From contig NZ_SGWX01000001.1 of the NCBI RefSeq assembly GCF_004216535.1, positions 3,658,001-3,722,000 of the forward strand: a stretch of 64,000 nt of DNA. Reading direction: 5' to 3'. The stretch is from Xylanimonas ulmi (lineage in GTDB: Bacteria > Actinomycetota > Actinomycetes > Actinomycetales > Cellulomonadaceae). The notes under the pieces are model-generated. The model made no database searches, was not told the origin of the DNA, and saw only the letters and a list, made by a program, of their open reading frames with translations. This document shows, one piece after another, positions 9,452 to 27,881 of this stretch (the stretch's first letter is position 1; each line of letters opens with the position of its first letter). Both the position numbers and the translations under genes were made by a program.

Positions 9452-9459
9452 CTTCCCCG

Positions 9460-9465: not shown

Positions 9466-9472
9466 GTGTCGC

Positions 9473-10327: not shown

Positions 10328-10328
10328 G

Positions 10329-11369
10329 ATGGCCGCGTCGCGCCCACCGGCGATGTCGGACGTCGCGGCGCTGGCGGGAGTGTCGCACCAGACGGTCTCG
10401 CGGGTGCTCAACGACCATCCGAGCGTGCGGCCGCAGACGCGTGAGCGGGTGCAGGCGGCCATCCGGGAGCTCGGCTACCGGCGCAACCGCGCCGCCCGCG
10501 CACTGGTCACGGCGCGATCGACCACGGTCGGTCTGCTGACCAGCGGCAGCGCGCACTTCGGCCCGGCGAGCACGGTGCTGGCCGTCGAGGCGGCCCTGCG
10601 CCGCGCGGGCTACTTCGTCTCGACGAGCTCCCTGGCCGGGTACGACGCCGCCTCGGCCGACGACGCGCTCGACCGCCTCGTCGACCAGGGGGTCGACGGC
10701 GTCGTCGCGGTCGCGCCCCTGACCGACGTCGCCCTGGCGGTGGGCGAGCACACGCCGCCGTGCCCCGTGGTGGTCGTCGCGGCGCGGCGTGAGATCCCCG
10801 AGACGGTGCGCGAGCAGTACGTGTACGTCGACCAGCACCGCGGCGCGCAGCTCGCGACCGAGCACCTGATCCGGCTGGGGCACACCCACGTGGTGCACCT
10901 CGCGGGGCCCACGCGGTGGTTCGACGCGAGCGAGCGCCAGGCCTCGTTCCTCCAGACGGCGGCCGACCTGGGCGCCGAGGCGGATGTGGTCGAGGCCCGG
11001 GGGTGGTCGGCGCGCCGCGGGTACGAGCTCGGGCAGACGCTCGCCCCGCGGGTGCGGCGCCCGGGCGGCCCGACGGGGTTCTTCGCGGCCAACGACCTGG
11101 TCGCGATGGGGCTGCTGCGCGCGTTCTGGGAGCACGGGCTGCGGGTGCCCGACGACGTGTCGGTGGTGGGCTTCGACGACATCGAGGGCAGCGCGTACCT
11201 GGTGCCCTCGCTGACGACGGTGCGCCAGCCGTTCGAGGCCGTGGGACGCGCCGCGGTCCGGGCGCTGCTGGACGCGTGGGAGACGCCCGATGACCCCGGC
11301 CGCTCGCACACCGCGGCGGTCATCCCGCCGGAGCTCGTGGTCCGGGGGAGCACCGCCGGACGCCGGTAG
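10329..11369 (+). CDS. LacI-family regulator, probable repressor of the arabinose regulon
   Basis: 346 residues. An N-terminal LacI helix-turn-helix (MSDVAALAGVSHQTVSRVLN) with hinge helix (RNRAARALVTARS) is followed by a periplasmic-binding-protein-like sensor domain (TVGLLTSG ... FFAANDLVAMGLL ... SVVGFDDIEGS). It lies immediately upstream of araB and 91 bases separate them, with a palindrome of the LacI type (11435-11458) in that gap. The same palindrome precedes chvE and ytfQ, so by position this protein is inferred to bind all three and to respond to arabinose or a derivative. It is encoded one base after proC and has no visible promoter of its own. Confidence 0.88.
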   Translation: MAASRPPAMSDVAALAGVSHQTVSRVLNDHPSVRPQTRERVQAAIRELGYRRNRAARALVTARSTTVGLLTSGSAHFGPASTVLAVEAALRRAGYFVSTSSLAGYDAASADDALDRLVDQGVDGVVAVAPLTDVALAVGEHTPPCPVVVVAARREIPETVREQYVYVDQHRGAQLATEHLIRLGHTHVVHLAGPTRWFDASERQASFLQTAADLGAEADVVEARGWSARRGYELGQTLAPRVRRPGGPTGFFAANDLVAMGLLRAFWEHGLRVPDDVSVVGFDDIEGSAYLVPSLTTVRQPFEAVGRAAVRALLDAWETPDDPGRSHTAAVIPPELVVRGSTAGRR

Positions 11370-11434
11370 CGGCGCGCGGTGGCGCTCGTCGCGGACAGCG
11401 CCTGGCACAGGACGCGCACTCCGCATCCCCACGA

Positions 11435-11458
11435 CGTGATGTGAGCGCTAACATCACG
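11435..11458. promoter_or_regulatory. LacI-type operator overlapping the araB promoter
   Basis: 24-bp palindrome with a single mismatched pair; its central part is TGATGTGAGCGCTAACATCA (11437-11456). The right half contains TAACAT (11449-11454), a -10 hexamer six bases before the araB GTG. A bound repressor would cover the promoter. The same core is found at 15634 and 27807. Confidence 0.8.
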
Positions 11459-11460
11459 AT

Positions 11461-13116
11461 GTGACCAGCGAACGACACCATGACGTGAAGCCCAACGACG
11501 GGACTGGCGAGAACCTCGGCCCGCGCGACGCCGTCGTCGCGGGGCGCACCAGCCTCGGCGTCGAGCTGGGCTCGACCAACATCAAGGCCTGCCTGATCGG
11601 GCCCGACCAGACCACGCTGGCGGTGGGCGCCCACACCTGGGAGAACCAGTTCGTCGACCGGGTGTGGACGTACTCGCTCGACGCGGTGCACGAGGGCTTG
11701 GCGGGCGCGTTCGCCGCGCTGGCCGCGGACGTGCGCGAGCGCTACGGCGTGCCGCTGACCACGGTGGGCGGGCTCGGGGTGTCGGCGATGATGCACGGCT
11801 ACCTCCCGTTCGACGCTGAGGACCGGCTGCTCGTGCCGTTCCGCACCTGGCGCAACACCTCGACGGGCGCCGCGGCGGCCGAGCTGACCCGCGAGCTGGG
11901 CTTCAGCATCCCCCTGCGCTGGTCGGTCGCGCACCTGTACCAGGCCGTGCTCGACGGTGAGGCGCACGTGCCGCAGGTCGCGCACCTGACCACCCTGGCG
12001 GGGTACGTGCACTGGCGGCTGACGGGCGAGCGGGTGCTGGGCGTGGGCGACGCCTCGGGCATGTTCCCCATCGACCCGGCCACGGGCGACTACGACGCCG
12101 CGATGCTCGCCGCGTTCGACGCGCTGGCCGCCCGTGCGGACGGAGCGCTGGGTGCGCCGCTGCGCGACCTGCTGCCCACCGTCGCCCCCGCGGGAGCCGC
12201 GGCCGGTCGCCTCACGGGGGCGGGCGCCGCGCTGCTCGACCCCACCGGGGCGCTGACCGCGGGCGTCCCGCTGTGCCCGCCCGAGGGTGACGCGGGCACG
12301 GGCATGGTCGCGACCAACGCCGTCGCCCCGCGCACGGGCAACGTGTCCGCCGGGACCAGCATCTTCGCGATGGTCGTCCTGGAGCGGGCGCTGGCGCAGG
12401 TCCACCCCGAGATCGACGTCGTCACCACGCCGTCGGGCGACCCGGTCGCGATGGTGCACTGCAACAACGGGTCCTCCGAGCTGGGCGCGTGGGCCGGCGT
12501 CCTGACGCAGTTCGCGCGCGCGATCGGCGCGGACGCCGACCAGGACGCGGTGTTCGCCGCGCTGCTGGGCGCGGCGCTCGACGGCGAGCCCGACGGCGGC
12601 GGCCTGCTGGCCTACAACTACCTGTCGGGCGAGACCATCACAGGGCTCGACGAGGGCCGCCCCATGGTGGTGCGCACGCCGGGCTCGCGCCTGACGCTCG
12701 CGAACTTCGCGCGCACCCAGGTCTACGGCGTGTTCGCGACGCTCGCCCTGGGCATGCGCACGCTCGCGGCCGAGGGTGTGGCCATCGACGCGCTGCTGGC
12801 GCACGGCGGCCTGTTCCGCACCGCGGGCGTGGCCCAGCGCATGCTCGCCGCCGCGGTCGACACGCCCGTCGCGGTGGCCTCGACCGCCGGTGAGGGCGGC
12901 GCGTGGGGCGTGGCGGTGCTGGCCGCCTACACCGCCGCGGTCGCCGGGGGAGAGACCCGCCCGCTGGCCGCGTGGCTCGACGAGCGGGTGTTCGCGCACG
13001 CCCAGACCGTCGTGGCCGAGCCCGATCCGCGCGACGTGGCGGGCATGGCGGCCTACCTGGAGACCTACACCGCGGGCCTGGCCATCCAGCACGCCGCGAC
13101 CGCCGCCATCCACTAA
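11461..13116 (+). CDS. araB: FGGY-family sugar kinase, probable L-ribulokinase
   Basis: Phosphorylates L-ribulose to L-ribulose-5-phosphate in the cytoplasm, the second step of arabinose use. 551 residues. The N-terminal phosphate loop is LGVELGSTNIKA, and the C-terminal half contains GNVSAGTSIFAM and LLAHGGLFRT as in FGGY kinases. Sequence alone does not separate ribulokinase from xylulokinase-like relatives; the assignment rests on its position directly before araD and araA. The first GTG at 11461 has no ribosome binding site but lies six bases after TAACAT, so a leaderless start is likely. An alternative GTG is at 11485. Confidence 0.85.
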   Translation: MTSERHHDVKPNDGTGENLGPRDAVVAGRTSLGVELGSTNIKACLIGPDQTTLAVGAHTWENQFVDRVWTYSLDAVHEGLAGAFAALAADVRERYGVPLTTVGGLGVSAMMHGYLPFDAEDRLLVPFRTWRNTSTGAAAAELTRELGFSIPLRWSVAHLYQAVLDGEAHVPQVAHLTTLAGYVHWRLTGERVLGVGDASGMFPIDPATGDYDAAMLAAFDALAARADGALGAPLRDLLPTVAPAGAAAGRLTGAGAALLDPTGALTAGVPLCPPEGDAGTGMVATNAVAPRTGNVSAGTSIFAMVVLERALAQVHPEIDVVTTPSGDPVAMVHCNNGSSELGAWAGVLTQFARAIGADADQDAVFAALLGAALDGEPDGGGLLAYNYLSGETITGLDEGRPMVVRTPGSRLTLANFARTQVYGVFATLALGMRTLAAEGVAIDALLAHGGLFRTAGVAQRMLAAAVDTPVAVASTAGEGGAWGVAVLAAYTAAVAGGETRPLAAWLDERVFAHAQTVVAEPDPRDVAGMAAYLETYTAGLAIQHAATAAIH

Positions 13117-13193
13117 CCCCTGCGGTGGTGGCGCTCGTTCTCACCACCCCCGACACCCCCTCGACCCCTCGCCGCAGCATCCTGGAGACACCC

Positions 13194-13865
13194 ATGACCA
13201 TCCCCACCGCCCTCCGCGCCGAGATCGACGCCGCCAAGCAGCGCGTGGCCGCGCTGCACGCCGAGCTGCCCCGCTGGGAGCTGGTCGTGTGGACCGCCGG
13301 CAACGTGTCCGAGCGGGTCGGCGACTATCTCGTCATCAAGCCGTCGGGCGTCTCGTACGACGACCTCGACGCCGACGCGATGGTCGTGTGCGACCTCGAC
13401 GGCAACCTCGTCGAGGGCGATCGGTCGCCGTCGTCGGACACCGCGGCGCACGCCTACGTCTACCGGCACATGGACCACGTGGGCGGCGTCGTGCACACGC
13501 ACTCGACCTACGCCGCGGCGTGGGCCGCGCGCGGCGAGGAGATCCCGTGTGTGCTGACCATGATGGCCGACGAGTTCGGCGGACCGATCCCGGTGGGCCC
13601 CTTCGCGATCATCGGCGACGACTCGATCGGGCGGGGCATCGTCGAGACCCTCGACGCGCACCGCAGCCCGGCCGTGCTCATGCGCAACCACGGCCCGTTC
13701 ACCATCGGCCGTGACGCCAAGGCCGCGGTCAAGGCCGCCGTGCTGCTCGAAGAGGTCGCCCGCGCCGTGCACATCTCACGCCAGCTCGGCGAGCCGACTC
13801 CCATCCCGCAGGAGGCGATCGACTCGCTCTACCACCGCTACCAGAACGTCTACGGCCAGCACTGA
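13194..13865 (+). CDS. araD: L-ribulose-5-phosphate 4-epimerase
   Basis: Zinc-dependent class II aldolase-fold enzyme converting L-ribulose-5-phosphate to D-xylulose-5-phosphate, linking arabinose to the pentose phosphate pathway. 223 residues, normal length. Metal ligands His101 and His103 (VVHTHSTYAAAW) and His166 (MRNHGPF) are present; NVSER and SGVSYDDL near the N-terminus form the substrate phosphate site. CTGGAGA precedes the ATG. Middle gene of araB-araD-araA. Confidence 0.95.
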   Translation: MTIPTALRAEIDAAKQRVAALHAELPRWELVVWTAGNVSERVGDYLVIKPSGVSYDDLDADAMVVCDLDGNLVEGDRSPSSDTAAHAYVYRHMDHVGGVVHTHSTYAAAWAARGEEIPCVLTMMADEFGGPIPVGPFAIIGDDSIGRGIVETLDAHRSPAVLMRNHGPFTIGRDAKAAVKAAVLLEEVARAVHISRQLGEPTPIPQEAIDSLYHRYQNVYGQH

Positions 13866-13916
13866 CCGACCCCGGGCCTTGCCCGGCCACCCGCCACGCC
13901 CCCTCGAAGGAGAGAC

Positions 13917-15428
13917 ATGCCCAAGCCCTACGCCGACCGTGAGGTCTGGTTCTTCACCGGTTCGCAGGACCTCTACGGTGAGGAGACCCTGCGCCAGGTC
14001 GCCGAGCAGTCGCAGGAGGTCGCGCGCGCCCTCGACGCCGCCGCCGAGGTGCCCGCGACCATCGTGTGGAAGCCCGTCCTGAAGGACGCCGCCTCGATCC
14101 GCCGGGCGATGCTCGACGCCAACGCCGACGACCGCGTGCTGGGCGTCATCACGTGGATGCACACCTTCAGCCCGGCCAAGATGTGGATCGCCGGCCTCGA
14201 CGCGCTGCGCAAGCCGCTGCTGCACCTGCACACGCAGGCCAACGTCGAACTGCCGTGGGACACCATCGACTTCGACTTCATGAACCTCAACCAGGCCGCG
14301 CACGGCGACCGCGAGTACGCCTACCTGGCCTCGCGCCTGGGCGTCGCGCGCACCACCGTCGTCGGGCACGCGTCGAACCCGGCGGTGCGGCGCCGGGTGG
14401 GCACTTGGATCCGCGGCGCGGCGGGCTGGGCGGCCACGCACGAGCTCACGCTCGTGCGCTTCGGCGACAACATGCGCAACGTCGCGGTGACCGAGGGCGA
14501 CAAGACCGAGGCCGAGCTGCGCTTCGGCGTCTCGGTCAACACCTGGGGCGTCAACGACCTGGTCGCCGCCGTCGACGCCGTCGCCGACGCCGAGGTCGAC
14601 GCGCTCGTCGCGCAGTACGAGGACCTGTACGACGTCGTCCCCGAACTGCGCCAGGGCGGCGCCCGCCATGAGTCGCTGCGCTACGCCGCACGCCAGGAGA
14701 TCGCGCTGGAGACCTTCCTCACCGCGGTGGGCGCCAAGGCGTTCACCACCAACTTCGAGGACCTGGGCGACCTGCGCCAGCTGCCCGGGCTCGCGGTCCA
14801 GCGCCTCATGGCCAAGGGCTATGGGTTCGGCGCCGAGGGCGACTGGAAGACGGCCGTGCTGGTGCGCGCCGCCAAGGTCATGGGCGCGGGGCTGCCCGGC
14901 GGCGCCTCGCTCATGGAGGACTACACCTATGACCTGACGCCCGGCGAGGAGGTCATCCTGGGCGCGCACATGCTGGAGGTCTGCCCGTCGCTCACCACGA
15001 CGAAGCCGCGCGTGGAGATCCACCCGCTCGGCATCGGCGGCAAGGAGGACCCCGTGCGCATGGTCTTCGACGCCGACGCCGTCGACGGCGCCGTCGTCGT
15101 CTCGCTGGCCGACATGCGCGACCGGTTCCGCCTGACCGCCAACGTCATCGATGTCGTGCCGCCGACGGCGCCGCTGCCCCACCTGCCCGTCGCGCGCGCG
15201 GTGTGGAAGCCGCGCCCGTCGTTCGAGGTCTCGGCCGAGGCGTGGCTGACCGCGGGCGGCGCGCACCACACGGTGCTGTCGACAGGGGCGGGCGTCGCGG
15301 AGTTCGAGGTGTTCGCGCAGCTCGCGCGCACCGAGCTGCTGGTCATCGACGAGGACACGACGCGGCGTGGGTTCGCCGACCAGGTGCGTTGGAACGCGGC
15401 CTATCACCGACTCGCTCAGGGGCTGTGA
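13917..15428 (+). CDS. araA: L-arabinose isomerase
   Basis: Converts L-arabinose to L-ribulose using a divalent metal, in the cytoplasm. 503 residues, the usual size. [15 protein letters not shown] at the N-terminus and [12 protein letters not shown] are classic AraA motifs; the C-terminal EDTT segment is also present. AAGGAGAG is placed well before the ATG. Last gene of the araBDA operon, followed by a strong hairpin terminator. Confidence 0.97.
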
Positions 15429-15460
15429 CCCCCGGGCGGTAGACACGGGTCGACGCCGCA

Positions 15461-15497
15461 CGAACGGCCGGACGCGCACTGCGCGTCCGGCCGTTCG
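15461..15497. terminator. Strong hairpin after araA
   Basis: Perfect 17-bp stem (arms 15461-15477 and 15481-15497) with a 3-base loop and no T run, a common actinobacterial form. Separates araBDA from the chvE unit. Confidence 0.8.
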
Positions 15498-15501
15498 CGT
15501 C

Positions 15502-15540
15502 TGCGCTGGTCGTGCGCTGGTCGTGCGCTGATCGTGCGCG
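15502..15540. repeat. Short 12-bp tandem repeat after the araA terminator
   Basis: Three units close to gctggtcgtgc(g), the last with one change. Non-coding; no function evident. Confidence 0.55.
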
Positions 15541-15633
15541 GGGCTGGGCGGTCGGGGGGACTTGCGGGCGACACCCGTGGCGTCATGACGCGGCGCCGTC
15601 TGGCGCACGACGAGCGCGGATTGTGCCCCACCG

Positions 15634-15653
15634 CGATGTGAGCGCTAACATCG
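15634..15653. promoter_or_regulatory. LacI-type operator before chvE
   Basis: CGATGTGAGCGCTAACATCG, palindromic apart from one pair, sharing the 16-base core of the araB operator. TAACAT at 15646-15651 is the presumed -10 box, with TTGTGC (15621-15626) a weak -35 candidate 19 bases upstream. Confidence 0.8.
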
Positions 15654-15704
15654 TTTTCGTGCCGGTCACGCGACCGGTTCTCGATGACGAGAAAGGAAGT
15701 CCCG

Positions 15705-16859
15705 ATGAAGCGCCTCGCCTCTCGCGTGGTCGCCGCCGCCGCGACCGCGACCCTCGCCCTAGGCCTGACCGCGTGCGCCGGGGGTGGCGCCGGGTCTGCC
15801 GACGACGGCGACGCCTCGCGCGACCCGAGCGACATCACCGTGGGCGTCGCCATGCCGACGCAGACCTCCGAGCGCTGGATCGCCGACGGCAACTCCGTCC
15901 GCGAGGGCCTGGAGGCCGCCGGCTTCGAGGTCAACCTGCAGTTCGCGAACGACGACATCCCCACCCAGCAGCAGCAGATCGACCAGATGATCACGCAGGG
16001 CGCCGACATCCTGATCGTCGCCTCGATCGACGGCACGGCCCTGGCCAACCAGCTCCAGGCCGCCGCCGACGCCGGCATCCCGATCATCTCCTACGACCGC
16101 CTCATCCGGGACACGAAGAACGTCGACTTCTACGTCACGTTCGACAACTTCCAGGTCGGCGTCGACCAGGCCACGTCGCTGCTGCACGGCCTCGGCGTCG
16201 TGGACGCCGACGGCAACGAGACGGGCGAGACCGGGCCGTTCGTGGTCGAGCTGTTCGCCGGCTCGCTCGACGACAACAACGCGCACTTCTTCTGGGACGG
16301 CGCGATGCAGACGCTCCAGCCGTTCATCGACGACGGCACGATCGTCGTCGGCTCGGGTCAGACGAGCATCGAGCAGGCGGCCACGCTGCGCTGGTCGCAG
16401 GAGACCGCCCAGCGGCGCATGGAGGACCTGCTGACCGCCCACTACGGCGGTGGCTCGGGCCAGCTCGACGGCATCCTGTCGCCGTTCGACGGCATCTCGC
16501 GCGGCATCATCACGGCGCTGCAGAACGCGGGCATCGGCCCGACGCTCGCCGAGGGTCTGCCCGTCGTCACCGGTCAGGACGCCGAGATCGCCTCGGTCGC
16601 GCTCATCGACCAGGGTGTGCAGTTCTCGACCATCTTCAAGGACACGCGCCTGCTCGCCGAGCAGGCCGTCACGGCCGCCAAGGCCTTCGCCGCCGGGCAG
16701 ACCCCGACGCCGAACGACACCGAGTCCTACGACAACGGCATGAAGGTCGTGCCGTCGTTCCTCCTGCAGGTCGACACCGTCACGGCTGACGACATCCAGT
16801 CGGTGCTGATCGACTCGGGCTTCTTCACCCCGGAGCAGGTCGCCCGCGGCCAGATGTGA
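15705..16859 (+). CDS. chvE: ChvE-type multiple-sugar-binding lipoprotein
   Basis: Extracellular lipid-anchored receptor of an ABC importer for pyranose sugars (arabinose, xylose, galactose or glucose are typical ligands). 384 residues. A signal peptide ends in the lipobox LTAC (Cys24), followed by a disordered linker and a periplasmic-binding-protein type I fold ([38 protein letters not shown] is diagnostic for the ChvE/XylF branch). ATG 15705 has AAAGGAAG in front. First gene of the chvE-gguA-gguB importer, under an operator shared with araB, so L-arabinose is the likely substrate. Confidence 0.9.
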
Positions 16860-16879
16860 CCGGGCCCTCCGGTTCCCTC

Positions 16880-16918
16880 CGCGGGGGCTCGTCGGCGCCG
16901 AGCCGGCGGGCCCCCGCG
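16880..16918. other. Intergenic hairpin between chvE and gguA
   Basis: Nine-bp arms CGCGGGGGC/GCCCCCGCG with a nested shorter stem. In binding-protein operons such hairpins often stabilise the upstream message or reduce readthrough, giving more receptor than ATPase. Confidence 0.5.
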
Positions 16919-16953
16919 TCCCGCGACCAGACAACGACGTAAGGACGGCGAGC

Positions 16954-18498: not shown

Positions 18499-19676
18499 GC
18501 GCCCTCGCGGACGTCAAAGACCTGTTCACCCGCAACCTGCGCACATCGGGCATCTACATCGCCTTCGTCGCGATCGTGCTGCTGTTCACGGTGCTCACCG
18601 ACGGCATGCTGCTGCAGCCGGGCAACCTGACGAACCTCGTCCTGCAGTTCTCCTACGTGCTGATCCTCGCCCTGGGCATGATCCTGGTGATCATCGGCGG
18701 GCACATCGACCTGTCGGTCGGGTCGGTCGTGGCGCTGTCCGGCGCCGTGTCGGCCGTGCTCGTCATCCGGCACGGAATGCCCTGGTGGGTCGGCATCCTG
18801 GCCGCGCTCGGCGTCGGCCTGCTGGTCGGCGCCTGGCAGGGCTTCTGGGTCGCCTACGTCGGCATCCCGGCCTTCATCGTGACCCTCGCGGGCATGCTGC
18901 TGTTCCGCGGCATGACGTTCCGTGTGCTCGACAACGTCTCGCTCTCGCCGTTCCCGCGCGAGTACCAGCAGGTGGCCAGCGGCTTCATCAACGGCCTGCT
19001 CGGCGGTCCCGGGTTCGACGTGTTCACCCTGGTCATCGGCGCGTTCGCCGTCGTCGGCTTCGCCTGGACGCAGTGGCGCAACCGTCAAGGCCGCCTGCAC
19101 TACCGCCAGCCGGTCGAGACGATGGGCCTGTTCGTCGCCAAGCTCGTGATCGTCGCCGCCGTCGTCATGGCGTTCGCATGGCAGCTCGCCAACTCGCGCG
19201 GCCTGCCGATCGTGCTCATCATCCTCGCGGTGCTGATCCTGACCTACCAGACCATCACCACGCGCACGGTGTTCGGCCGCCACATCTACGCGATCGGCGG
19301 CAACCTCCCGGCCGCGCTGCTGTCGGGCGTCAAGGTCAAGAAGGTCAACTTCTGGATCTTCGTCAACATGGGCCTCCTGGCGGGCGTCGCCGGCGCGGTG
19401 TTCTCCTCGCGGTCCAACGGCGCACAGCCCGCGGCCGGCAACATGTTCGAGCTCGACGCAATCGCCGCGTGCTTTATCGGCGGCGCCTCGACCTCGGGTG
19501 GCGTGGGCCGCGTGACGGGAGCGATGGTGGGTGGCCTCGTCATGGCCGTCATGTCCAACGGCATGCAGCTCATGGGCGTCGACCAGTCGACGCAGCAGAT
19601 CATCCGCGGTCTGGTGCTGCTGCTGGCCGTCGCGTTCGACATCTACAACAAGCGTCGGGCCGGCGCGGTGCGCTGA
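18495..19676 (+). CDS. gguB: Sugar ABC importer permease
   Basis: Membrane component of the ChvE-GguA importer, 393 residues with about ten hydrophobic segments. The CUT2 permease motif [18 protein letters not shown] is near residue 70, and the C-terminal [16 protein letters not shown] loop contacts the ATPase. A longer central region (around [10 protein letters not shown]) is typical of the GguB/XylH branch. ATGA overlap with gguA implies coupled translation. Followed by a hairpin. Confidence 0.93.
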
Positions 19677-19704
19677 CCGCGCGCCCGCACCTGACCGCTG
19701 ACTC

Positions 19705-19735
19705 CGCCCGGCGCCGCAGATCCCGGCGCCGGGCG
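19705..19735. terminator. Hairpin after gguB
   Basis: 11-bp perfect stem (19705-19715 with 19725-19735), 9-base loop, no T run; lies between gguB and abfA. Confidence 0.55.
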
Positions 19736-19786
19736 CAGTCGCACCCGGCCCCCGCGGCCACCGTTCCCACGCCGAGGAGTCCACCC

Positions 19787-21307
19787 ATGCTGTCCGCCCT
19801 CGTGACCATCGACCCGGCGTTCGTCGTCGGCCCGGTCCGCCCGCGCACGTTCGGCTCGTTCGTCGAGCACCTGGGCCGGTGCGTGTACACCGGCATCCAC
19901 GACCCGAGCCACCCGACCGCCGACGCCGACGGCTTCCGCGGCGACGTCGTCGACCTGGTGCGTGAGCTCGGCGTCACGACGGTGCGCTACCCGGGCGGCA
20001 ACTTCGTCTCGGGCTACCGCTGGGAGGATGGCGTGGGCCCGATCGCCGAGCGCCCGCGCCGACTGGACCTGGCGTGGCACTCGACCGACCCCAACCTCGT
20101 GGGCGTGGACGAGTTCGTGCGCTGGTGCCGCAAGGCGGACGTCGAGCCGATGATGGCGATCAACCTCGGCACACGCGGCGTGCAGGAGGCGCTCGACCTG
20201 CTGGAGTACTGCAACGCGCCCGTGGGCTCCTACTGGGCCGACCAGCGCGCGGCCAACGGCTCGCCCGAGCCCCACAAGATCCGCATGTGGTGCCTGGGCA
20301 ACGAGATGGACGGGCCGTGGCAGACGGGCCACAAGACGGCGCACGAGTACGGGCGGCTGGCCGCGGAGACCGCGCGCGCGATGCGCCAGATGGACCCCGA
20401 CCTGGAGCTGGTGGCCTGCGGGTCCTCCGGGTGGGGGATGGCGACGTTCGGCGCGTGGGAGCACACCGTGCTGACCGAGTCCTACGACCAGGTCGACCTC
20501 ATCTCGGCGCACGCCTACTACCACGAGCAGGACGGCGACCTCGCCTCGTTCCTCGCCTCGCCGGTCGACATGGACCGGTTCATCGACGACGTCACGGCGA
20601 CCGCGGACGCGGTGCGCGCGGCGGGCAAGCACACCAAGCGCGTCCACATCTCGTTCGACGAGTGGAACGTCTGGTACGTGGACCGCGCCGAGTCGCGTCC
20701 GCCGTCGGGCGACGACTGGCCGGTGGCGCCCGTGCTGCTGGAGGACCGGTACAACGTGGCCGACGCCGTCGTCGTCGGCGGGCTGCTCATCTCACTGCTG
20801 CGCCACACCGACCGGGTGCACGCGGCCTCGCTCGCGCAGTTGGTCAATGTGATCGCGCCGATCATGACCGAGCCGGCCGACCAGGGCGGGCGCGCGTGGC
20901 GGCAGACGACGTTCCACCCGTTCGCGCTCACCGCGCAGCACGCCAAGGGCGAGGTGCTGCGCCTGGCCGTGGACGCGCCCGAGCACGAGACCGCCAAGTA
21001 CGGGCGCGTGCCGGTGCTCGACGCCGTCGCCACGCATGACCCGGCCACGGGCGGCGTGAGTGTGTTCGCGGTCAACCGGTCGCTGACCGAGACCGTGGCC
21101 CTCGACGTCGACCTGCGCGGCTTCCCCGGCCTGCGCGTGGCCGAGGCGGTCACACTCTCCCACCCCGACCACACCTGGACCGCCACCCCCGACAACCCCA
21201 CCTCGGTGCGGCCGACCGCCAACCCCACCGCCACCGTCACCGACCACCACGCCACCACCCACCTCCCCCCGACCTCCTGGACCCTCCTCCACCTCACCCA
21301 CCCCTAA
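19787..21307 (+). CDS. abfA: GH51 alpha-L-arabinofuranosidase
   Basis: Hydrolyses terminal arabinofuranose from arabinan or arabinoxylan oligosaccharides; no signal peptide, so it acts in the cytoplasm on imported fragments. 506 residues. Acid/base Glu173 (GNEMDGPW) and nucleophile Glu292 (SFDEWNVWY) have nearly the same numbers as in well-studied GH51 enzymes (175 and 294). A barrel is followed by the C-terminal beta domain. ATG 19787 has GAGGAG upstream. Odd: the last ~50 codons are extremely C-rich and G-poor, giving a His/Thr/Pro/Asn-rich end. No arabinose operator is seen directly upstream, so it is probably read from the chvE promoter despite the hairpin. Confidence 0.95.
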   Translation: MLSALVTIDPAFVVGPVRPRTFGSFVEHLGRCVYTGIHDPSHPTADADGFRGDVVDLVRELGVTTVRYPGGNFVSGYRWEDGVGPIAERPRRLDLAWHSTDPNLVGVDEFVRWCRKADVEPMMAINLGTRGVQEALDLLEYCNAPVGSYWADQRAANGSPEPHKIRMWCLGNEMDGPWQTGHKTAHEYGRLAAETARAMRQMDPDLELVACGSSGWGMATFGAWEHTVLTESYDQVDLISAHAYYHEQDGDLASFLASPVDMDRFIDDVTATADAVRAAGKHTKRVHISFDEWNVWYVDRAESRPPSGDDWPVAPVLLEDRYNVADAVVVGGLLISLLRHTDRVHAASLAQLVNVIAPIMTEPADQGGRAWRQTTFHPFALTAQHAKGEVLRLAVDAPEHETAKYGRVPVLDAVATHDPATGGVSVFAVNRSLTETVALDVDLRGFPGLRVAEAVTLSHPDHTWTATPDNPTSVRPTANPTATVTDHHATTHLPPTSWTLLHLTHP

Positions 21308-21317
21308 CCCCACCCCC

Positions 21318-21335
21318 GAGATACCGGTCCTCGGT
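21318..21335. repeat. Single copy of half of a palindromic terminator-like element
   Basis: GAGATACCGGTCCTCGGT, identical in inverted orientation to part of the large inverted repeat at 48009-48107. Here only one arm exists, with its C-run flank, 11 bases after the abfA stop. Confidence 0.75.
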
Positions 21336-21390
21336 CATGGGTCGTCGTTCTGGTGACCGGGTGCAGTTCAGGCGGTGAAGCCCCGTGGAG

Positions 21391-23253
21391 TCATTCGCTC
21401 CCGCTCGATGGCGGCCGGATTCCCACGCGGAGTGCTTCAGAGATCACGGCGCGCACCAGCTCAGCCCTCTGGTCGTCAAGTGACAGGTCGACCACAGTGA
21501 CGGGAGCTGTGTACGTCTTCTCGCGTAGGGACCAGGCGTGCGGCTGCCACGAACCGCGCCCCAGAAGTCCTTCGAACGTGACGGACCGCGCACGATGGTC
21601 GGTGGTCTTGACGACGTACCCCGCAGCCTGCCAGGCACGAACGTGGGGACGCTGCCGACCGCCCCCTCCGCCCTTGGCCCACCATGCGTCACCGCCCGTC
21701 CTGCGTGCCGCCTTCGGGCTCCGAACAGCAGTCTCGGGCAGCCCAGGCGGCCCGAGGATCTCGTCGATCTCGGAAAATGTCAGCGTGACCTCGTTCTCTG
21801 GCCGGGCAACGAGGGCTTCGTAGAGCGGGTAGTACCTTGAGCTAGCCCTCGGCGGCATGCCCGCATTCGACTCCGACCAGGTCGACTCAAGAAGTGACTG
21901 GAACTCCTCTGGACTGTGGGCCGGGTCTTCATGCACCGACGGAAGGTGAAGCGTCTCAACCGCAAGGTGATCGAGGCTCGACGTCGCAAGGCCGCAAAGC
22001 TGAGCCTGCAGGTTTTCGATCAGCGCCGACCGGCGCACCTCGCTCGCCAGGACGACGTTGTCGGTGATCCTCCAATCACCGTCCCACCGGAGCCGCAGCG
22101 CCCTAGAGATGCCAAGAAGCGACTCGGCGTCCACGCTGGCCACCCCCAGCACGAGTAGCCTGAGGTGCTCCCGGGTAATCTCGGCGGCCTGCACGACGTG
22201 GGTCATCACATCACCCAGCGTGAGGCCCGTGGCCTCCGCTGCCGAGAGCATGGCTGAGAGGACCTTTCGGCCGACAAGGTCACTAAGTGCTCTCGCTCGC
22301 GCGACGTCGGGCATGGAGTGCTTGTCGGCCCTGAACGGCGGCAGCAGCGCGCCCCGCAACCCGGGCGGGATGTCATCGTGATCCAGGGTCCAGACGGCGA
22401 GCGTCACCCGGTCTGCTGGGGCGATATCCGCGAGACCCGATGCGGAGGGCACGTCGCGGGCTGCCAACGCCATGGGACTCCGCGCGCGCAGGTACAGCTC
22501 TGCGCGACTCGCCAGCACACGAAAGCGTCCGCCCAGGAGGTTGACGTACCGGTCCCAGAGGGCGTCTCCACGGTGGCACGGGCACGCGCATGCGATGGAC
22601 CCCGCGGGGCGCTCCTTCGGTTGGCACGTGCACCCCGCCGGCAGATGCTCGACCGTGGCGGCCGCCCGCAACTCATGAAGCTCAGCATGGAAGCCCCGCC
22701 CGGTTACACCGTGCCACTGCCACGTGGTCCACAAGACCTCCGGTAGCCACGCGACCACCGCCTTGTACGCACTGCGGAACTGCTGCTCGATGTGGTTCAG
22801 ACGCGCCTCCCTGTCTGCCGACTCACCCTCGCCCGGGCGCCCGCTCGGATGGTGCCAAGGCGGCGCATAGCGGGAGGAGATGTCGTGGGTCGGAAGGCGG
22901 CGCAGCTCGTTCAGCCACCTCGGTGTGGACTCGGCGTCGGAGCGTCCCACCAGGGCTGGTGGAAGCCTGTCCTGCACCAACCACCGCAGCCTGCTGTCCA
23001 CCCAGGGCACCCACGGTTCATGACCTATCGCACTCCGATGGGCAGAGCACGCCTCACCGTCCGCCCGCGCCGCCTCTTCGGACAGTGCCACCTGAATCTC
23101 GGGCCATGAGGGCAGACGGGTACTGCTCGGTATCTCCGTAGGATTGCGTGCCACCTTGAGGGCTGTCTCTAGATCCGAGCTGCGAGGTTCGGAAGAGCAA
23201 AAACCTAGGAAAAACAACATCCGGGCGATCAGACGCGCGAGACTCGTGTCCAT
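21391..23253 (-). CDS. Unknown 620-residue protein with a Cys/His cluster and a C-terminal WW-AW domain
   Basis: No function can be assigned to the whole protein. ATG 23253 is chosen because the open frame upstream changes composition and crosses the divergent promoter. Residues 1-200 are largely helical and Trp-rich (WVPWVDSRLRWL, WLPEVLWTTWQWHG). A likely zinc knuckle follows: C208, C210, C222, C224, C226, H227. Residues 230-440 are helical with an HTH-like feel. The C-terminal part (474-562) has YYPLYEAL, LTFSEIDEILG, DAWWAKG and VRAWQAAGYVV, a pattern I associate with the DUF7662 type domain of mobile-element and defence proteins (recalled, not searched). G+C is visibly lower than in flanking genes, and an IS remnant is nearby, suggesting transfer. 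Confidence 0.75.
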   Translation of the reverse strand: MDTSLARLIARMLFFLGFCSSEPRSSDLETALKVARNPTEIPSSTRLPSWPEIQVALSEEAARADGEACSAHRSAIGHEPWVPWVDSRLRWLVQDRLPPALVGRSDAESTPRWLNELRRLPTHDISSRYAPPWHHPSGRPGEGESADREARLNHIEQQFRSAYKAVVAWLPEVLWTTWQWHGVTGRGFHAELHELRAAATVEHLPAGCTCQPKERPAGSIACACPCHRGDALWDRYVNLLGGRFRVLASRAELYLRARSPMALAARDVPSASGLADIAPADRVTLAVWTLDHDDIPPGLRGALLPPFRADKHSMPDVARARALSDLVGRKVLSAMLSAAEATGLTLGDVMTHVVQAAEITREHLRLLVLGVASVDAESLLGISRALRLRWDGDWRITDNVVLASEVRRSALIENLQAQLCGLATSSLDHLAVETLHLPSVHEDPAHSPEEFQSLLESTWSESNAGMPPRASSRYYPLYEALVARPENEVTLTFSEIDEILGPPGLPETAVRSPKAARRTGGDAWWAKGGGGGRQRPHVRAWQAAGYVVKTTDHRARSVTFEGLLGRGSWQPHAWSLREKTYTAPVTVVDLSLDDQRAELVRAVISEALRVGIRPPSSGSE

Positions 23254-23291
23254 GGCCTCGACTGTACGCCCGGGGGAGTCTTCGGTAGAAA

Positions 23292-23317
23292 TCACAGCGT
23301 CATAGCAGATGCTGTGA
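23292..23317. promoter_or_regulatory. Palindrome in the divergent region of the island
   Basis: TCACAGC-N12-GCTGTGA, located 39 bases upstream of the 620-residue protein gene and about 87 bases upstream of the 93-residue gene. Position between divergent genes suggests an operator for both. Confidence 0.5.
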
Positions 23318-23361
23318 ATATGTACCTGGTCAAGCGGGGAACAGCGCGGCAGGATGGCTCT

Positions 23362-23384
23362 TGCGGGCGGGACAGGCGCCCGCA
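23362..23384 (+). other. 5-prime leader hairpin before the 93-residue gene
   Basis: Perfect 8-bp stem TGCGGGCG/CGCCCGCA with a 7-base loop, ending only six bases before the ribosome binding site CAGGAGA. Could act as an attenuator or translation control element. Confidence 0.45.
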
Positions 23385-23403
23385 GGACGACAGGAGATTG
23401 CAC

Positions 23404-23685
23404 ATGGCACAGCGAGCAGTCCGCACCGTTCGTGCGCGCAGCTTCCCGAGGGGGCGGCGGACCGGTCGCCGCAGACATCCGAGCGGCCGCTGCCTCGGCA
23501 AGATCCGGTACCGGGACCACGGGGAAGCTATCGTCGCGCTCCACTCGACCCAGGCGAGGGCCCGGCGCGACCTCACTGACGCAGGCCGAACGAGTCGCCA
23601 CGAGCAGCGGGTGTATCCGTGCGCCCGCTGCTCCGGATGGCACCTGACGTCCTGGCAGGCAGCGGAGCAGCCGCTTCCTGCGTGA
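23404..23685 (+). CDS. Small basic zinc-ribbon-like protein of mobile elements
   Basis: 93 residues, strongly basic N-terminus. The core GKIRYRDHGEAIVALH is followed by YPCARCSGWHLTSW, a Cys-x2-Cys-x2-WHLT motif seen in many short proteins carried by actinobacterial phages and integrative elements; their function is not known. CAGGAGA is seven bases before the ATG. First of three small genes on the plus strand, divergent from the 620-residue gene. Confidence 0.7.
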   Translation: MAQRAVRTVRARSFPRGRRTGRRRHPSGRCLGKIRYRDHGEAIVALHSTQARARRDLTDAGRTSRHEQRVYPCARCSGWHLTSWQAAEQPLPA

Positions 23686-23729
23686 ATCTCAGAGAGCCGC
23701 AGACCGAAACCGGAAGGGAGGTGAACGTC

Positions 23730-23819
23730 TTGAGCCTCATCGCAGCACTCCTCGGCAGCCTGCTCCACTGGCTGGCCGACAGGGTCCTCGCGTGGCTTCT
23801 CGCAGCGGCCACCGCGTAG
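23730..23819 (+). CDS. 29-residue hydrophobic membrane peptide
   Basis: Tiny peptide consisting of one probable membrane helix (SLIAALLGSLLHWLADRVLA and a short Leu/Ala tail). A very strong ribosome binding site, AAGGGAGGTG (23714-23723), stands six bases before TTG 23730, which decides the start over the GTG at 23721 embedded in that site. The size and design resemble type I toxins and other membrane microproteins, but no antitoxin was proven. Followed by a hairpin. Confidence 0.6.
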   Translation: MSLIAALLGSLLHWLADRVLAWLLAAATA

Positions 23820-23828
23820 CAGAGTCGG

Positions 23829-23873
23829 CGCGTGTGCGGCGGATGCCGGGTCCCCGACCCCGTCGCACACGCG
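23829..23873. terminator. Long-loop hairpin after the membrane peptide gene
   Basis: Ten-bp arms CGCGTGTGCG/CGCACACGCG with a 25-base loop containing a further short stem. Candidate terminator, or the core of a small antisense RNA. Confidence 0.45.
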
Positions 23874-23943
23874 TCGCCGGTTCCGGCAACCCACTCGGGC
23901 TCCGGCGCCGGACGAGCGCACAAACACAGGAGATGTGAGGAAG

Positions 23944-24126
23944 ATGGCGAAGAACATCGGCGGACGGCGCGCTGGCGCGGTTACCAATCGCGTCCAGTTC
24001 GAAACGCCCGGCGGAACGTACGTCAAGACCGACCGGCTAGGCGTCATCATCTCGGTGAAGAAGTCCCCCGGCCCTTACCGAGGAGTGGCGAAGGTGAGTG
24101 CCCCGCCCAAGCCCGCGGGCCGCTGA
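23944..24126 (+). CDS. Small basic protein of the AKNIGG(R)RxGAVxxR type
   Basis: 60 residues starting MAKNIGGRRAGAVTNRVQFE with a C-terminal GVIISVKKSPGPYRGVAKV. This matches a widespread family of short uncharacterised proteins whose usual form ends in VKxxxxPFKGVRKE; they occur singly near mobile or accessory genes. The ribosome binding site AGGAGATG lies about ten bases upstream, preceded by a second ATG at 23935 that is less favourable. Third small gene of the island. Function unknown. Confidence 0.65.
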   Translation: MAKNIGGRRAGAVTNRVQFETPGGTYVKTDRLGVIISVKKSPGPYRGVAKVSAPPKPAGR

Positions 24127-24212
24127 ACATGAGACTCCACGGGCCCATGCCAGATGGCGCAAGCTCGGCTTGGTAGTGGCGACGGCGGCCACGCGCGCAC
24201 GCTCCTGACACA

Positions 24213-25439
24213 GTGTCTCGGCCTCGTGCTCAAGTGCGCCACGGCCCTGGCTGCCGCGGTCGCACGCAGCGCGGCCACCGCAGTTTGGTCGTCATCGACC
24301 TCCGCGATCGTGGCGGCCAAGGACGGCCACACGGACGAGCGCGCGGCGACCGATCGGACGCGCGAGATGCCCCACCAGCGCGGGCAGAGGCCCGCGCATG
24401 GTTGGGGCAGGTCCCGGACCCGCACTCGAAGTTCGGGCGCAGGTACCCGCTGGTGAGCGTGCTCGCACTGGTCCTCGCGGCGGTGGCCCTCGGCGCGCAC
24501 GATCAACCGGGTCCTGGAGAAGATTAACCACGCCCGGTTCGACGAGATCACCCATGCCTGGCTTGCCGACCGGGCAGCGCGCACCGGTGCCGTGCGTGGG
24601 CGCCGCGGGGTGCGGGCGCCGATCCGTGGCCTGGCGATGGACGGCAAAACGTTACGCTGCGCCCGCACGAGCGCCGGTGGGCGCCTCGTGGCCGAGCAGA
24701 TGTTCGCTGCTGCGTGGCACGACACCGGCGTGGTCGCCGAGCAGGACCGGATCGTGGGCGGGGACGCGACCGGCGCGTTGGCGCCCCTGGTCGAACGGCT
24801 CCACACGCGCGGCGAGCTCGGGCCGGATGTATGCGTGACGGTGGACGACAAGCACGCCCAACGGTCCATGGCCGATGCCGTGCGCGACACGAGCACGCAC
24901 TTCTTGGTCACGATCAAGGACAACCAGCCCACGCTCCGCACGCAGATCGCGGCCCTGGACTGGGACGCCGTGCGTGCCTACGCCACCCGGGATCGGGCGC
25001 CCGGGCGCGTCGAGGAACGCACGGTGCGTACCGTGACACTCGGCGTACACCTGCATGGGTGCGGGTGGCGAGACGTTGCCCAGGTCGGGCAAGTCACCCG
25101 CCGGACCCTGCGGAAGAAGACGCCGACGGCCGAGCCGTCCTGGACCCAGGAGACCGTGCACATCATGACCTCGCTGCCCGCCGGGCGCGCAGGCATCGCG
25201 ACGATCGGCGACCTGGTCAGGATGCACTGGGCATCGAGAACCGTGTCCACCACGTGCGCGACATGGCCATGGGTGAGGACCACCACACGGCGCGCACTGG
25301 GAACCCGGCCGCGAAGTGGTCCTGCGTGTGCAACCTCGTCCTGGGCCTCCTACGCCAAAGCGGCGCCAAGAACATCGCCGCAGCACAAGCGTCCACGAAC
25401 CGGGATCCCGCGAAGTTCCTCGCCCTCATCGCGACATAG
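24213..25439 (+). pseudogene. Decayed ISAs1-family (H-repeat type) DDE transposase
   Basis: Transposase remnant in three frames. N-terminal piece: GQVPDPHSKFGRRYPLVSVL up to about 24497. It then jumps frame at 24494-24500 to TINRVLEKINHARFDEITHAW, with about 45-50 residues missing compared with relatives, an internal deletion. The middle carries MDGKTLRC (first catalytic Asp), VTVDDKHAQRSM (second) and TIKDNQPTL. At 25229-25231 a single G is missing in CACTGG-GCATC, so HW is separated from GIENRVHHVRDM (catalytic Glu) and the end NIAAAQASTNRDPAKFLALI. Two independent lesions mean it is inactive. Terminal inverted repeats were not identified. Confidence 0.88.
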
Positions 25440-25496
25440 CGCAAGCCAGGTCACGACCAGGAAAAGAACGCCGAGCCCCTGGGGTTAGATGGGAGT

Positions 25497-26216
25497 GTGG
25501 GTGATGGGGTGGACGGCGTGGGGCGGCGGGGGCGGCGGCCTGCGGGGCAGGAGACGCGCGGGGCGATCCTCGCCGCCGCGCGCGAGGAGTTCCTCACTCA
25601 GGGGTACGACGCCGCCTCGATGCGCGCTGTCGCCCGCCGCGCCGGAGTGGACCCGGGTACGGTGCGCCACTGGTTCGGCGACAAGGGGCGGCTTTTCGCC
25701 GCCACGGTCGGCCTGTCCGACATCGACCCGGGCGCGCTCATGCGCGCCGCCGTCGAAGGCCCGCTCGACGGCATCGGCGAGCGGATCGTGCGCCGCGTGC
25801 TGGAGGTCTGGGACGCCGACGACGGCGGCGCCGGCATCCGCATCGCGCTGCCCGTCGTGCTGGGCGACCCCGAACGGCGGGCGCTGCTGCCGCAGTTCCT
25901 CGGGGCCGAGGTGCTCGGCCCGATCGCAGCCCGGCTCGACCCGAACAGCGCGCGACTGCGGGCCTCGCTCGCCGCGACACAGATGGTCGGCGTGCTGCTG
26001 GCGCGCTACGTCGTCGGGCTCGACCCGATCGCGTCGATGCCGGCGCGCGAGGTCGCGGCCATCGTCGGGCCCACGCTGGAGCGGTACCTCGTGGGCGAGT
26101 TGACGGGCGGGCGCTCCCGCGGCGTCAGGGCCGACGGCGTCACGGGTGACGGCGATCACGTCGACTCCCTTGCGCCCGGGCCCTTGCGGGCGCACAATTC
26201 CCCGCATGGTGAATAA
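25497..26216 (+). CDS. TetR-family regulator of the adjacent ABC exporter
   Basis: 239 residues. The N-terminal helix-turn-helix domain (TRGAILAAAREEFLTQGYDA, SMRAVARRAGVDPGTVRHWF) is clear, followed by a TetR_C-like ligand domain (PERRALLPQFLGAEVLGPIA). It precedes an ABC-2 exporter and its end overlaps the ATPase start by 11 bases, so it probably represses its own operon and responds to an exported toxic compound. Start GTG 25497 is uncertain: GTG 25509 or other in-frame sites a few codons on are possible, and no good ribosome binding site is visible. Confidence 0.88.
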   Translation: MGDGVDGVGRRGRRPAGQETRGAILAAAREEFLTQGYDAASMRAVARRAGVDPGTVRHWFGDKGRLFAATVGLSDIDPGALMRAAVEGPLDGIGERIVRRVLEVWDADDGGAGIRIALPVVLGDPERRALLPQFLGAEVLGPIAARLDPNSARLRASLAATQMVGVLLARYVVGLDPIASMPAREVAAIVGPTLERYLVGELTGGRSRGVRADGVTGDGDHVDSLAPGPLRAHNSPHGE

Positions 26217-26997
26217 CTCGCCGAGCGGCGCGGGCGCGACCCCGGCGCCCCCGTCCGCGCCGCCCGCTGTGCGCGTGCGCGGGCTGACCGTCGTCCGCGG
26301 CGGCAGCACGATCCTCGAAGGCCTCGACCTCGACGTGCCGAGCGGTCGGGTCGTCGGACTGCTGGGCCCGTCGGGCTCCGGCAAGACGACGCTCATGCGC
26401 TCGATCGTCGGCGTCCAGGCCAATGTCACGGGCGACCTGCAGGTGCTCGGCGCGCCCGCGGGGTCGCCGTCGCTGCGCCGCCGCGTCGGGTACGTGACGC
26501 AGTCGGCCTCGGTCTACGCCGACCTGTCGGTCACCGAGAACCTGCAGTACTTCGCGGCGCTCGCGGGCCTGCGGGGGGCGGCGGCGCGCGGCGCGGTCGC
26601 GGCCGCCGTCGACGCGGTCGACCTCGGTGGGCATGAGCGCCAGCAGGTCGTCACCCTCTCGGGCGGCGAGCGCTCGCGCGTCTCGCTCGCCGGAGCGCTC
26701 GTGGCCGACCCCGAGCTCCTGGTGCTCGACGAGCCCACTGTGGGCCTCGACCCGGTGCTGCGCCGCGACCTGTGGACGATGTTCCACCGGCTCGCCGACG
26801 AGGGGCGCACGCTGTTGGTCTCCAGTCACGTCATGGACGAGGCGGCGCGGTGTGACCGGCTGTTGCTGCTGCGCGCGGGCACGCTCGTCGCCGACACCAC
26901 GCCCGACGCGCTGCTCGCCGAGACCGGCGCTCCCGACGCCGAGCGGGCGTTCCTGACCCTGATCGACCGCGCGCACACCGACGCAGGCGCCCGATGA
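26206..26997 (+). CDS. ABC-2 type exporter ATPase
   Basis: 263 residues, cytoplasmic ATPase of a drug- or polyketide-type exporter. Walker A GPSGSGKTT, Q-loop VTQSASVYADLS, signature LSGGERSRVSLA, Walker B LLVLDEPTVGLD and switch His (SSHVMDE) are intact. ATG 26206 overlaps the end of the TetR gene; its own stop overlaps the permease ATG (ATGA). A short Pro/Ala-rich N-terminal extension precedes the ATPase domain. Confidence 0.92.
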   Translation: MVNNSPSGAGATPAPPSAPPAVRVRGLTVVRGGSTILEGLDLDVPSGRVVGLLGPSGSGKTTLMRSIVGVQANVTGDLQVLGAPAGSPSLRRRVGYVTQSASVYADLSVTENLQYFAALAGLRGAAARGAVAAAVDAVDLGGHERQQVVTLSGGERSRVSLAGALVADPELLVLDEPTVGLDPVLRRDLWTMFHRLADEGRTLLVSSHVMDEAARCDRLLLLRAGTLVADTTPDALLAETGAPDAERAFLTLIDRAHTDAGAR

Positions 26998-27716
26998 GCC
27001 TGACGATCGCGACGGCGAGCCGGGTGCTCGGCCAACTGCGCCACGACCACCGCACCGTGGCCCTCATCCTGCTGCTGCCGTGCCTCATCGTGGGCCTGGT
27101 CGCGTGGATGTTCGACGGCACACCGGTGCTCGACCAGTTCGGCCCGGTGCTCGTCGGGTTCTTCCCGCTCTTCGTGATGTTCCTGGTCACGAGCGTGGCC
27201 ACGCAGCGCGAGCGGTCGAGCGGCACGCTCGAACGCCTCATGACCACGCCGCTGCGCAAGGGCGACCTCGTGGCCGGCTACGCGCTCGCCTTCGGCGGGC
27301 TCGCCGTCGTGCAGGCATTCGTCGTCGTCGGATTCGCGCTGGGCGTGGGCATGGACGTGGCCGGGTCGCTCGGGCTGGTGGTGCTGGTCGCGCTGCTCGA
27401 CGCCGTGCTGGGCTGCACGCTGGGCCTGGCGGCCTCGGCCGCGGCGCGCACCGAGTTCCAGGCCGTGCAGATGATGCCGGCGGTCATCATCCCGCAGATC
27501 ATCACGTGCGGGATCCTCATGCCGCGCGACCAGATGCCGCAGATCCTGGAGTGGATCAGCCGCGTGCTGCCGCTGACCTACGCGGTCGAGGCGCTGCAGC
27601 ACCTGGCGGCTGGTGCGCAATGGGCTGACGTGCGGGGAGCGATCGGCGTGATCGTGCTGTGGATCGTGGGCGCCGTGGTGCTGGGCGTGCTGACGCTGCG
27701 CCGTCGCACCGAGTGA
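26994..27716 (+). CDS. ABC-2 type exporter permease
   Basis: 240-residue membrane protein with six hydrophobic segments and the ABC2_membrane pattern: a first helix (VALILLLPCLIVGLVAWMF), the cytoplasmic motif ERSSGTLERLMTTPLRKGDL, and a C-terminal VLPLTYAVEALQHLA. Forms the export channel with the preceding ATPase. Substrate unknown. Confidence 0.9.
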   Translation: MSLTIATASRVLGQLRHDHRTVALILLLPCLIVGLVAWMFDGTPVLDQFGPVLVGFFPLFVMFLVTSVATQRERSSGTLERLMTTPLRKGDLVAGYALAFGGLAVVQAFVVVGFALGVGMDVAGSLGLVVLVALLDAVLGCTLGLAASAAARTEFQAVQMMPAVIIPQIITCGILMPRDQMPQILEWISRVLPLTYAVEALQHLAAGAQWADVRGAIGVIVLWIVGAVVLGVLTLRRRTE

Positions 27717-27730
27717 GGGCGCGCGCCGTC

Positions 27731-27760
27731 GGGGCGCACGCGAGCGGCGGGCGACGCCCC
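27731..27760. terminator. Weak hairpin after the ABC exporter
   Basis: Six-bp arms GGGGCG/CGCCCC with an 18-base loop, located between the exporter and the ytfQ promoter. Confidence 0.3.
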
Positions 27761-27806
27761 GCGGACGTTCACCAAATTGTGACCCGAGGCACTTCTCCGC
27801 GCCACG

Positions 27807-27820
27807 TGTGAGCGTTAACA
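27807..27820. promoter_or_regulatory. LacI-type operator before ytfQ
   Basis: TGTGAGCGTTAACA, the 14-base core of the arabinose operators with one base changed in the centre. TAACAT at 27816-27821 is the presumed -10 box; TTCTCC-like sequence upstream is a poor -35. Links the second importer to the arabinose regulon across the inserted island. Confidence 0.75.
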
Positions 27821-27881
27821 TCCTCGACATCGGTTTCATGCCGTCACGGCGCCACTCCGGTGGCGGTCTCGAGGAGGAGAC

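Follow-up and report, generated by a model that had tools for sequence, protein, structure and literature searches.

Three matching operators and a LacI-family protein point to a local arabinose regulon in Xylanimonas ulmi

Genes and operators of the locus

In the 64,000-nucleotide stretch of the Xylanimonas ulmi genome analyzed here (contig NZ_SGWX01000001.1, positions 3,658,001 to 3,722,000; referred to as the window), a gene for a LacI-family regulator is followed by the catabolic genes araBDA, by a transport group, chvE-gguAB with an arfA-type gene, and, further downstream, by a second transport group, ytfQRT-yjfF (Table 1). The operator core TGTGAGCG(C/T)TAACA is found in three copies in the window, one before each of these groups, and each operator ends on its right side in TAACAT. 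The LacI protein is very probably a local arabinose repressor of the AraQ/AraR type, acting at three promoters in which the -10 box is fused to the operator.

The initial annotation had recognized the core at 11435, 15634 and 27807; the sites are real, but the coordinates given deviate by 4, 2 and 1 bases, respectively. A single altered base before ytfQ had also been described, which is correct for the 14-base core, but across the 16-mer ATGTGAGCGCTAACAT operator 3 differs at two bases. In shuffled windows a mean of 0.11 matches was obtained at ≤3 mismatches, as compared to 5 listed for the real window, a number that counts both exact operator sites on each strand. When the whole genome (3,965,098 bases, one contig) was scanned for the core TGTGAGCGNTAACA, exactly three matches without mismatch were found, i.e., the three operators of the window, and none at one mismatch. 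At ≤2 mismatches there are 24 genome matches (the three operators, two of these again as read in reverse, and 19 further matches) vs 15 for a reversed-letter control, and the sites at two mismatches are therefore taken to be near chance. The core is confined to the three sites, as originally claimed, rather than being frequent and unrelated to sugar genes. Two copies of TGGGAGCGCTACCA spaced by 22 bp are found at G000:C1:156922-156957; the pair resembles operators of cellobiose-type LacI regulators.

Table 1. Genes, operators and candidate promoter elements of the arabinose locus (window coordinates)
Feature	Positions	Strand	Remarks
LacI-family regulator, 346 aa	10329-11369	+	PF00356 LacI and PF13377 Peripla_BP_3, both over cut-off; start one base past proC stop
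Operator 1	11439-11454	+	16-mer ATGTGAGCGCTAACAT; right half TAACAT 11449-11454, putative -10 of araBDA
araB-type sugar kinase	11461-13116	+	GTG start; best NCBIfam matches XylB and ribulokinase models, both below cut-off
araD, L-ribulose-5-phosphate 4-epimerase	13194-13865	+	NF005123 over cut-off (query began at second residue)
araA, L-arabinose isomerase	13917-15428	+	NF002795 over cut-off
Possible -35 of chvE	15621-15626	+	TTGTGC; 19-nt spacer to TAACAT; weak match
Operator 2	15636-15651	+	16-mer ATGTGAGCGCTAACAT; putative -10 TAACAT 15646-15651, before chvE
chvE, multiple-monosaccharide binding protein	15705-16859	+	NF040907 over cut-off
gguA, ATPase	16954-18498	+	NF040905 over cut-off
gguB, permease	18495-19676	+	NF040906 over cut-off
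arfA-type arabinofuranosidase	19787-21307	+	NF051901 over cut-off; downstream of gguB, codirectional
Weak possible -35 of ytfQ	27793-27798	+	TTCTCC; 17-nt spacer to TAACAT
Operator 3	27806-27821	+	GTGTGAGCGTTAACAT; putative -10 TAACAT 27816-27821, before ytfQ
ytfQ/gafA-type furanose-binding protein	27882-28877	+	best NCBIfam match YtfQ (NF041827), below cut-off
ytfR-type ATPase	28897-30423	+	best NCBIfam match YtfR, below cut-off
ytfT-type permease	30420-31451	+	best NCBIfam match YtfT, below cut-off
yjfF-type permease	31451-32470	+	NF008630 YjfF, over cut-off (sole ytf-group member above)

Conservation of the operators in relatives

Relatives of the locus were fetched with the regulator protein via peptide patterns, which yielded 80 loci (48-78% identity) from Cellulomonas, Oerskovia, Cellulosimicrobium, Actinotalea, Xylanimonas and others. 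Eight were set aside, having no ara gene behind lacI in the available stretch, and the remaining 72 together with the window constitute the 73 scored loci. At each of these, the best 14-mer from lacI to the first ara match was scored at ≤2 mismatches to the symmetric core TGTNAGCGCTNACA, over an interval that reaches about 2-4 kb at some loci. An operator is present between lacI and the ara genes at all 73 loci, and a site at ≤1 mismatch is found in the 500 bases before ytfQ at 27 of 27 loci, window included. On a broader scale, TGTKARCGYTAACAT is present in 106 of 121 genomes of the family, while a reversed-letter control gave 0 in all 121. The genomes of six of the eight set-aside loci were searched as well; because four of them carry sites elsewhere (none in the other two), loci that lack neighboring ara genes cannot serve as a clean negative control.

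Additional sites are seen in one group of relatives: at six of the seven loci L044-L050 (not L047) a second site, e.g., TGTGAGCGATCACA, lies about 30 bp past the ytfQ-side operator, and L044-L049 harbor an additional pair of sites after yjfF (the extra sites of L044-L050 fall at about 15329-15567 and 20659-20941). These paired sites are possibly double operators.

The gene-side half-site as a -10 box

A dimer of identical subunits should be indifferent to which half-site is which. The conservation of the operator is nevertheless one-sided: in the araB set, the right inner A is found at 72/73 loci vs 17/73 for the mirror T, and the outer T that completes TAACAT at 72/73 vs 40/73 for the mirror A. 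The exceptions are L108, whose araB operator is overlapped by a second site behind it, and L053, respectively. After dereplication by flank similarity the corresponding values are 54/55 vs 10/55 and 54/55 vs 30/55. The ytfQ set is likewise one-sided (26/27 and 26/27 vs mirrors 2/27 and 9/27).

The trinucleotide TTG is found 16-19 bases upstream of TAACAT at 39 of the 73 araB sites (29/55 dereplicated); five 4-base windows taken farther upstream each gave TTG at no more than 3 sites. At spacer 4, TTG is present at 13 sites of the araB set, which were left out of this -35 comparison because the operator's own left end creates that TTG. A wider, class-level set comprised 30 homologues, among them that of the window, each with the residues HQTVSR and a stretch of about 3-4 kb. 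In 29 of them a site at ≤1 mismatch is present and its outer base is variable, so the fixed outer T of the closer relatives looks promoter-driven.

Because the gene-side half is frozen, TTG clusters at 16-19 bases and the outer base is free in class-level homologues, TAACAT is probably the -10 box, and the fusion of operator and -10 box originally proposed gains support from the one-sided conservation and the TTG spacing. The fusion would thus apply at the promoters of araB and ytfQ, and at that of chvE in the window, not at every site of the relatives.

The arrangement is especially compact at araB. The first in-frame start past TAACAT is a GTG at 11461, 6 bases on and 12 from the first T at 11449; the sole alternative before the conserved part of the protein is a GTG at 30 bases, with no ribosome site apparent. 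L042, the nearest relative (78% regulator identity), has a single start of this kind after TAACAT, 7 bases on. By manual count, at 57 of 61 other scored loci the start nearest the conserved part is found 25-105 bases after TAACAT, often behind a purine-rich stretch; at the remaining four the start is further off (two loci) or none is in frame (two loci). As far as the consulted parts of the source go, leaderless genes with a TANNNT motif about 12 bp before the start are frequent in Actinobacteria (PMC3160421), a spacing that the predicted start codon of the window's araB matches. Since this codon lies 6 nt after the -10 box, the araB mRNA is probably leaderless.

The regulator

The LacI protein belongs to the LacI/GalR family by its domains (Table 1), and its PDB matches include the lac repressor and PurR. 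Residues 5-317 of the regulator match 2-308 of a 360-residue chain; the protein thus seems to end without the extra C-terminal part of the lac repressor, and looping by tetramers would therefore not be expected. The recognition helix VSHQTVSRVLN is identical in 80/80 relatives. The genome encodes 19 LacI-type helix-turn-helix (HTH) motifs, and the HQ..R residues (positions 20, 21 and 25; H and Q precede TVSR) occur in none of the 18 other LacI proteins. These residues, together with the operator beside the regulator's gene at 73/73 loci, bear out the initial choice of this protein as the likely regulator. That choice had been qualified by the position of the gene behind proC, which turns out to be ordinary: among the 80 relatives, lacI has proC shortly upstream in 65 and at a greater distance in three, and in 12 there is no forward proC match, some of these stretches ending at a contig edge.

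Sites at other genes and in more distant homologues

Twenty sites away from the paired ara locus were hand-picked among the matches listed for the family genomes. By Pfam, 14 of them adjoin arabinofuranosidase-type genes (9 GH43, 2 GH62, 2 GH127 and 1 with an AbfB domain); GH43 includes xylosidases, so not each GH43 neighbor need act on arabinose. One further site lies beside a ChvE-like protein (L194) and three beside AraB-like kinases (L199-L201), these four products being named by eye from translations. The sites at L195 and L197 were not counted as adjoining arabinose genes, since at an E-value of 1e-8 only an Ig-like domain passed for the former and only ricin-type lectin domains for the latter, which has a cut-off reading frame. 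Taking the longest open reading frame near a distal site as its neighbor was discarded, as it gave wrong frames at several loci, and a codon-position GC test was used instead.

In the class-level set, no ara gene was found in the stretch of about 3-4 kb for 26 of the 30 homologues, which means that the core alone does not imply arabinose. The loci L156-L181 encode LacI homologues (about 50% identity) from bacteria of other families, with HQTVSR and with cores close to TGTKAGCGCTAACA; of these 26 loci, eight are near a ytfQ-type gene and none has an ara gene in the stretch examined.

Surrounding genes

The arfA-type gene, with no operator between it and gguB, probably shares the chvE-gguAB transcript. 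Unrelated genes separate arfA from ytfQ. From 21391 to 25488, between arfA and the TetR/ABC genes, a 750-residue frame with a DUF7662 match is found on the minus strand. The same segment contains an incomplete transposase frame of the ISAs1 family, whose match (E 5.5e-14) is below cut-off. The segment 25497-27716, immediately before operator 3, encodes a TetR-family regulator and an ABC-2 type ATPase/permease pair. In the relative L051, ytfQ lies directly after gguB with its own operator, and the gap between arfA and ytfQ in the window may therefore represent inserted DNA. Convergent with yjfF, a SNF2-type helicase with a SWIM zinc finger occupies 32485-36009 on the minus strand.

A proposed mechanism and its alternatives

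From the sites and their uniqueness, their conservation together with the regulator, the one-sided conservation and the unique recognition residues, we infer how binding, repression, effector and transcription start may be connected. In the absence of inducer, a dimer of the regulator would occupy the near-palindrome at the three promoters and cover the -10 box, i.e., repression would be by occupancy; because the gene-side half-site doubles as the -10 hexamer, the repressor and RNA polymerase would be mutually exclusive. Either L-arabinose or a breakdown product, most likely L-arabinose itself, would free the dimer from the operator. This release would switch on catabolism (araBDA), a monosaccharide importer together with an arabinofuranosidase (chvE-gguAB-arfA) and a second importer, probably of L-arabinofuranose (ytfQRT-yjfF). 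At araB, operator, promoter and start codon would form a single compact block. We also lean, if only slightly, towards the broader view that operator and -10 box constitute one jointly selected sequence in this family, with the promoter half frozen; in the window genome and its nearest relative about 25 bases would then also include the start, and the glycosidase genes of relatives would have recruited the operator in either orientation.

A number of observations weigh against this picture. The araB-type kinase matches curated ribulokinase models weakly. The relatives share descent, so that the counts are not independent, and the fetch pattern PPAMSDVA, which covers the start of the HTH and not HQ..R, inflates conservation at the HTH start. 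In the 500 bases before chvE, candidate sites are found at 8 of 26 loci at 1 mismatch and at 11 of 26 at 2 (window included; one locus with a reversed chvE was skipped), and some of these lie 200-330 bases upstream of the gene. The single regulon proposed in the initial annotation is thus well founded for araBDA and ytfQ but not for chvE-gguAB as a general member; on this evidence, membership of chvE-gguAB is lineage-specific, being clear in the window. Further points on this side concern the promoter itself: TTG at spacer 16-19 is lacking at 34 of the 73 araB sites overall, that of the window among them. A sigma-70 consensus scan of 9000-28500, regarded as uninformative, yielded no promoter. 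By inspection, TAACAT is oriented away from the nearest gene at 9 of the 20 distal sites, which cannot test the half-site asymmetry because the search pattern contained TAACAT. These last three points would suit a genuine operator in which TAACAT is not the -10 box, the promoter lying elsewhere or the repressor blocking elongation. Such an arrangement is improbable, however, given that of the two halves the gene-side one alone is fixed, down to an outer T which varies among class-level homologues, that TTG is concentrated at spacer 16-19, and that the araB start fits the actinobacterial leaderless signal (PMC3160421, as seen in part).

The identity of the regulator and of its effector may be considered in the same manner. 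LacI operators are mutually similar, and the genome has near sites at other places, TGGGAGCGCTACCA being one of them, so that the three sites could be controlled by one or more of the 18 LacI paralogues instead; the restriction of HQ..R to this protein and the pairing of its gene with a site at every scorable locus make this most improbable. Less remote, though still unlikely, is a single regulator whose signal is a different sugar or an intermediate of the pathway; the ChvE and Ytf systems would then be importers of several sugars. Phosphorylated intermediates, e.g., L-ribulose-5-phosphate and D-xylulose-5-phosphate, have been proposed as effectors of bifidobacterial AraQ (PMC4746261, PMC5928203), the effector tests described for Bifidobacterium (B.) breve AraQ were negative (PMC6882875), all in the parts of these sources that were consulted, and most class-level homologues have no ara gene close by. 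Against this possibility, araBDA, arfA and the GH43, GH62 and GH127 genes of relatives mostly concern arabinose. Moreover, the Corynebacterium (C.) glutamicum AraR is reportedly termed L-arabinose-responsive in the title of a 2014 paper by Kuge. In substance the initial annotation is right: regulon, regulator and fused -10 box are each backed by comparative evidence.

Relation to known systems

The likeness of the window's system to AraQ and AraR is drawn from gene context and operator sequence rather than from a protein comparison. The LacI-type AraR of C. glutamicum recognizes a 16-bp palindrome, with one site overlapping a -10 box, and also controls its own galM-araR promoter. The window regulator is predicted to be the same type of repressor of araA, araB and araD; its gene, in contrast, lies behind proC and is not preceded by an operator. 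In C. glutamicum ATCC 31831, according to the parts of the sources consulted, AraR represses araA, araB, araD and araE, and its deletion renders araA, araB and araD constitutive (PMC5956887, PMC13056197). Control of araE is thus an additional function of AraR (PMC5956887).

The AraQ consensus is TGTGAGCGCTCACA, and the gene lies next to araBDA (PMC4746261, in the text available). The window has the same arrangement: a LacI-family gene upstream of araBDA, and a palindrome of matching sequence ahead of araB. Relative to TGTGAGCGCTCACA, one base is changed in operators 1 and 2 and two in operator 3. AraQ sites that overlap the -10 or -35 box have been read as repression (PMC4746261, PMC5928203, PMC6882875), and purified B. 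breve AraQ binds such palindromes, with no effector found in the portion of the work consulted (PMC6882875). For other Actinomycetales, the accessible text describes AraQ homologues beside ara operons and no further distant sites (PMC4746261), and for Micrococcaceae, Geodermatophilaceae and Glycomycetaceae the predicted targets of AraQ are araBDA and the adjacent ABC importer araFGH (PMC5928203, likewise in part). Bifidobacterial AraQ, as described in the parts consulted, is predicted to act globally on genes of central carbon metabolism, in part as an activator, whereas the window regulator would have three local targets with two ABC importers. Sites of a global regulon, such as those before pyk, eno and gap, did not appear at ≤1 mismatch in the genome scan, with its three exact and no one-mismatch sites; those at two mismatches were not looked at individually.

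The second importer resembles GafABCD (YtfQRT-YjfF), members of which, in the sections seen, have L-arabinofuranose or galactofuranose as their ligand and may be encoded beside arabinose genes (PMC10191376); in the window the importer would be of the YtfQ type, the ytfQ, ytfR and ytfT matches are below the NCBIfam cut-offs, and the specificity is a predicted one. Among the matches listed, no published account of this regulon in Cellulomonas-type bacteria was found, which is no proof of absence.

To this the present analysis adds a regulon of three operons and two importers, a half-site frozen on the promoter side, a probably leaderless araB and, in relatives, distal sites at arabinofuranosidase-type genes. 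The locus would provide a complete small regulon, from the regulator and its three operators to their targets, among bacteria related to biomass-degrading actinobacteria, and its short core often marks arabinofuranosidase-type genes in related genomes. The one-sided, fixed TAACAT and the putatively leaderless araB are not among the features of AraQ in the descriptions consulted. The locus would also be a clean natural example of an operator half-site that serves as a -10 box.

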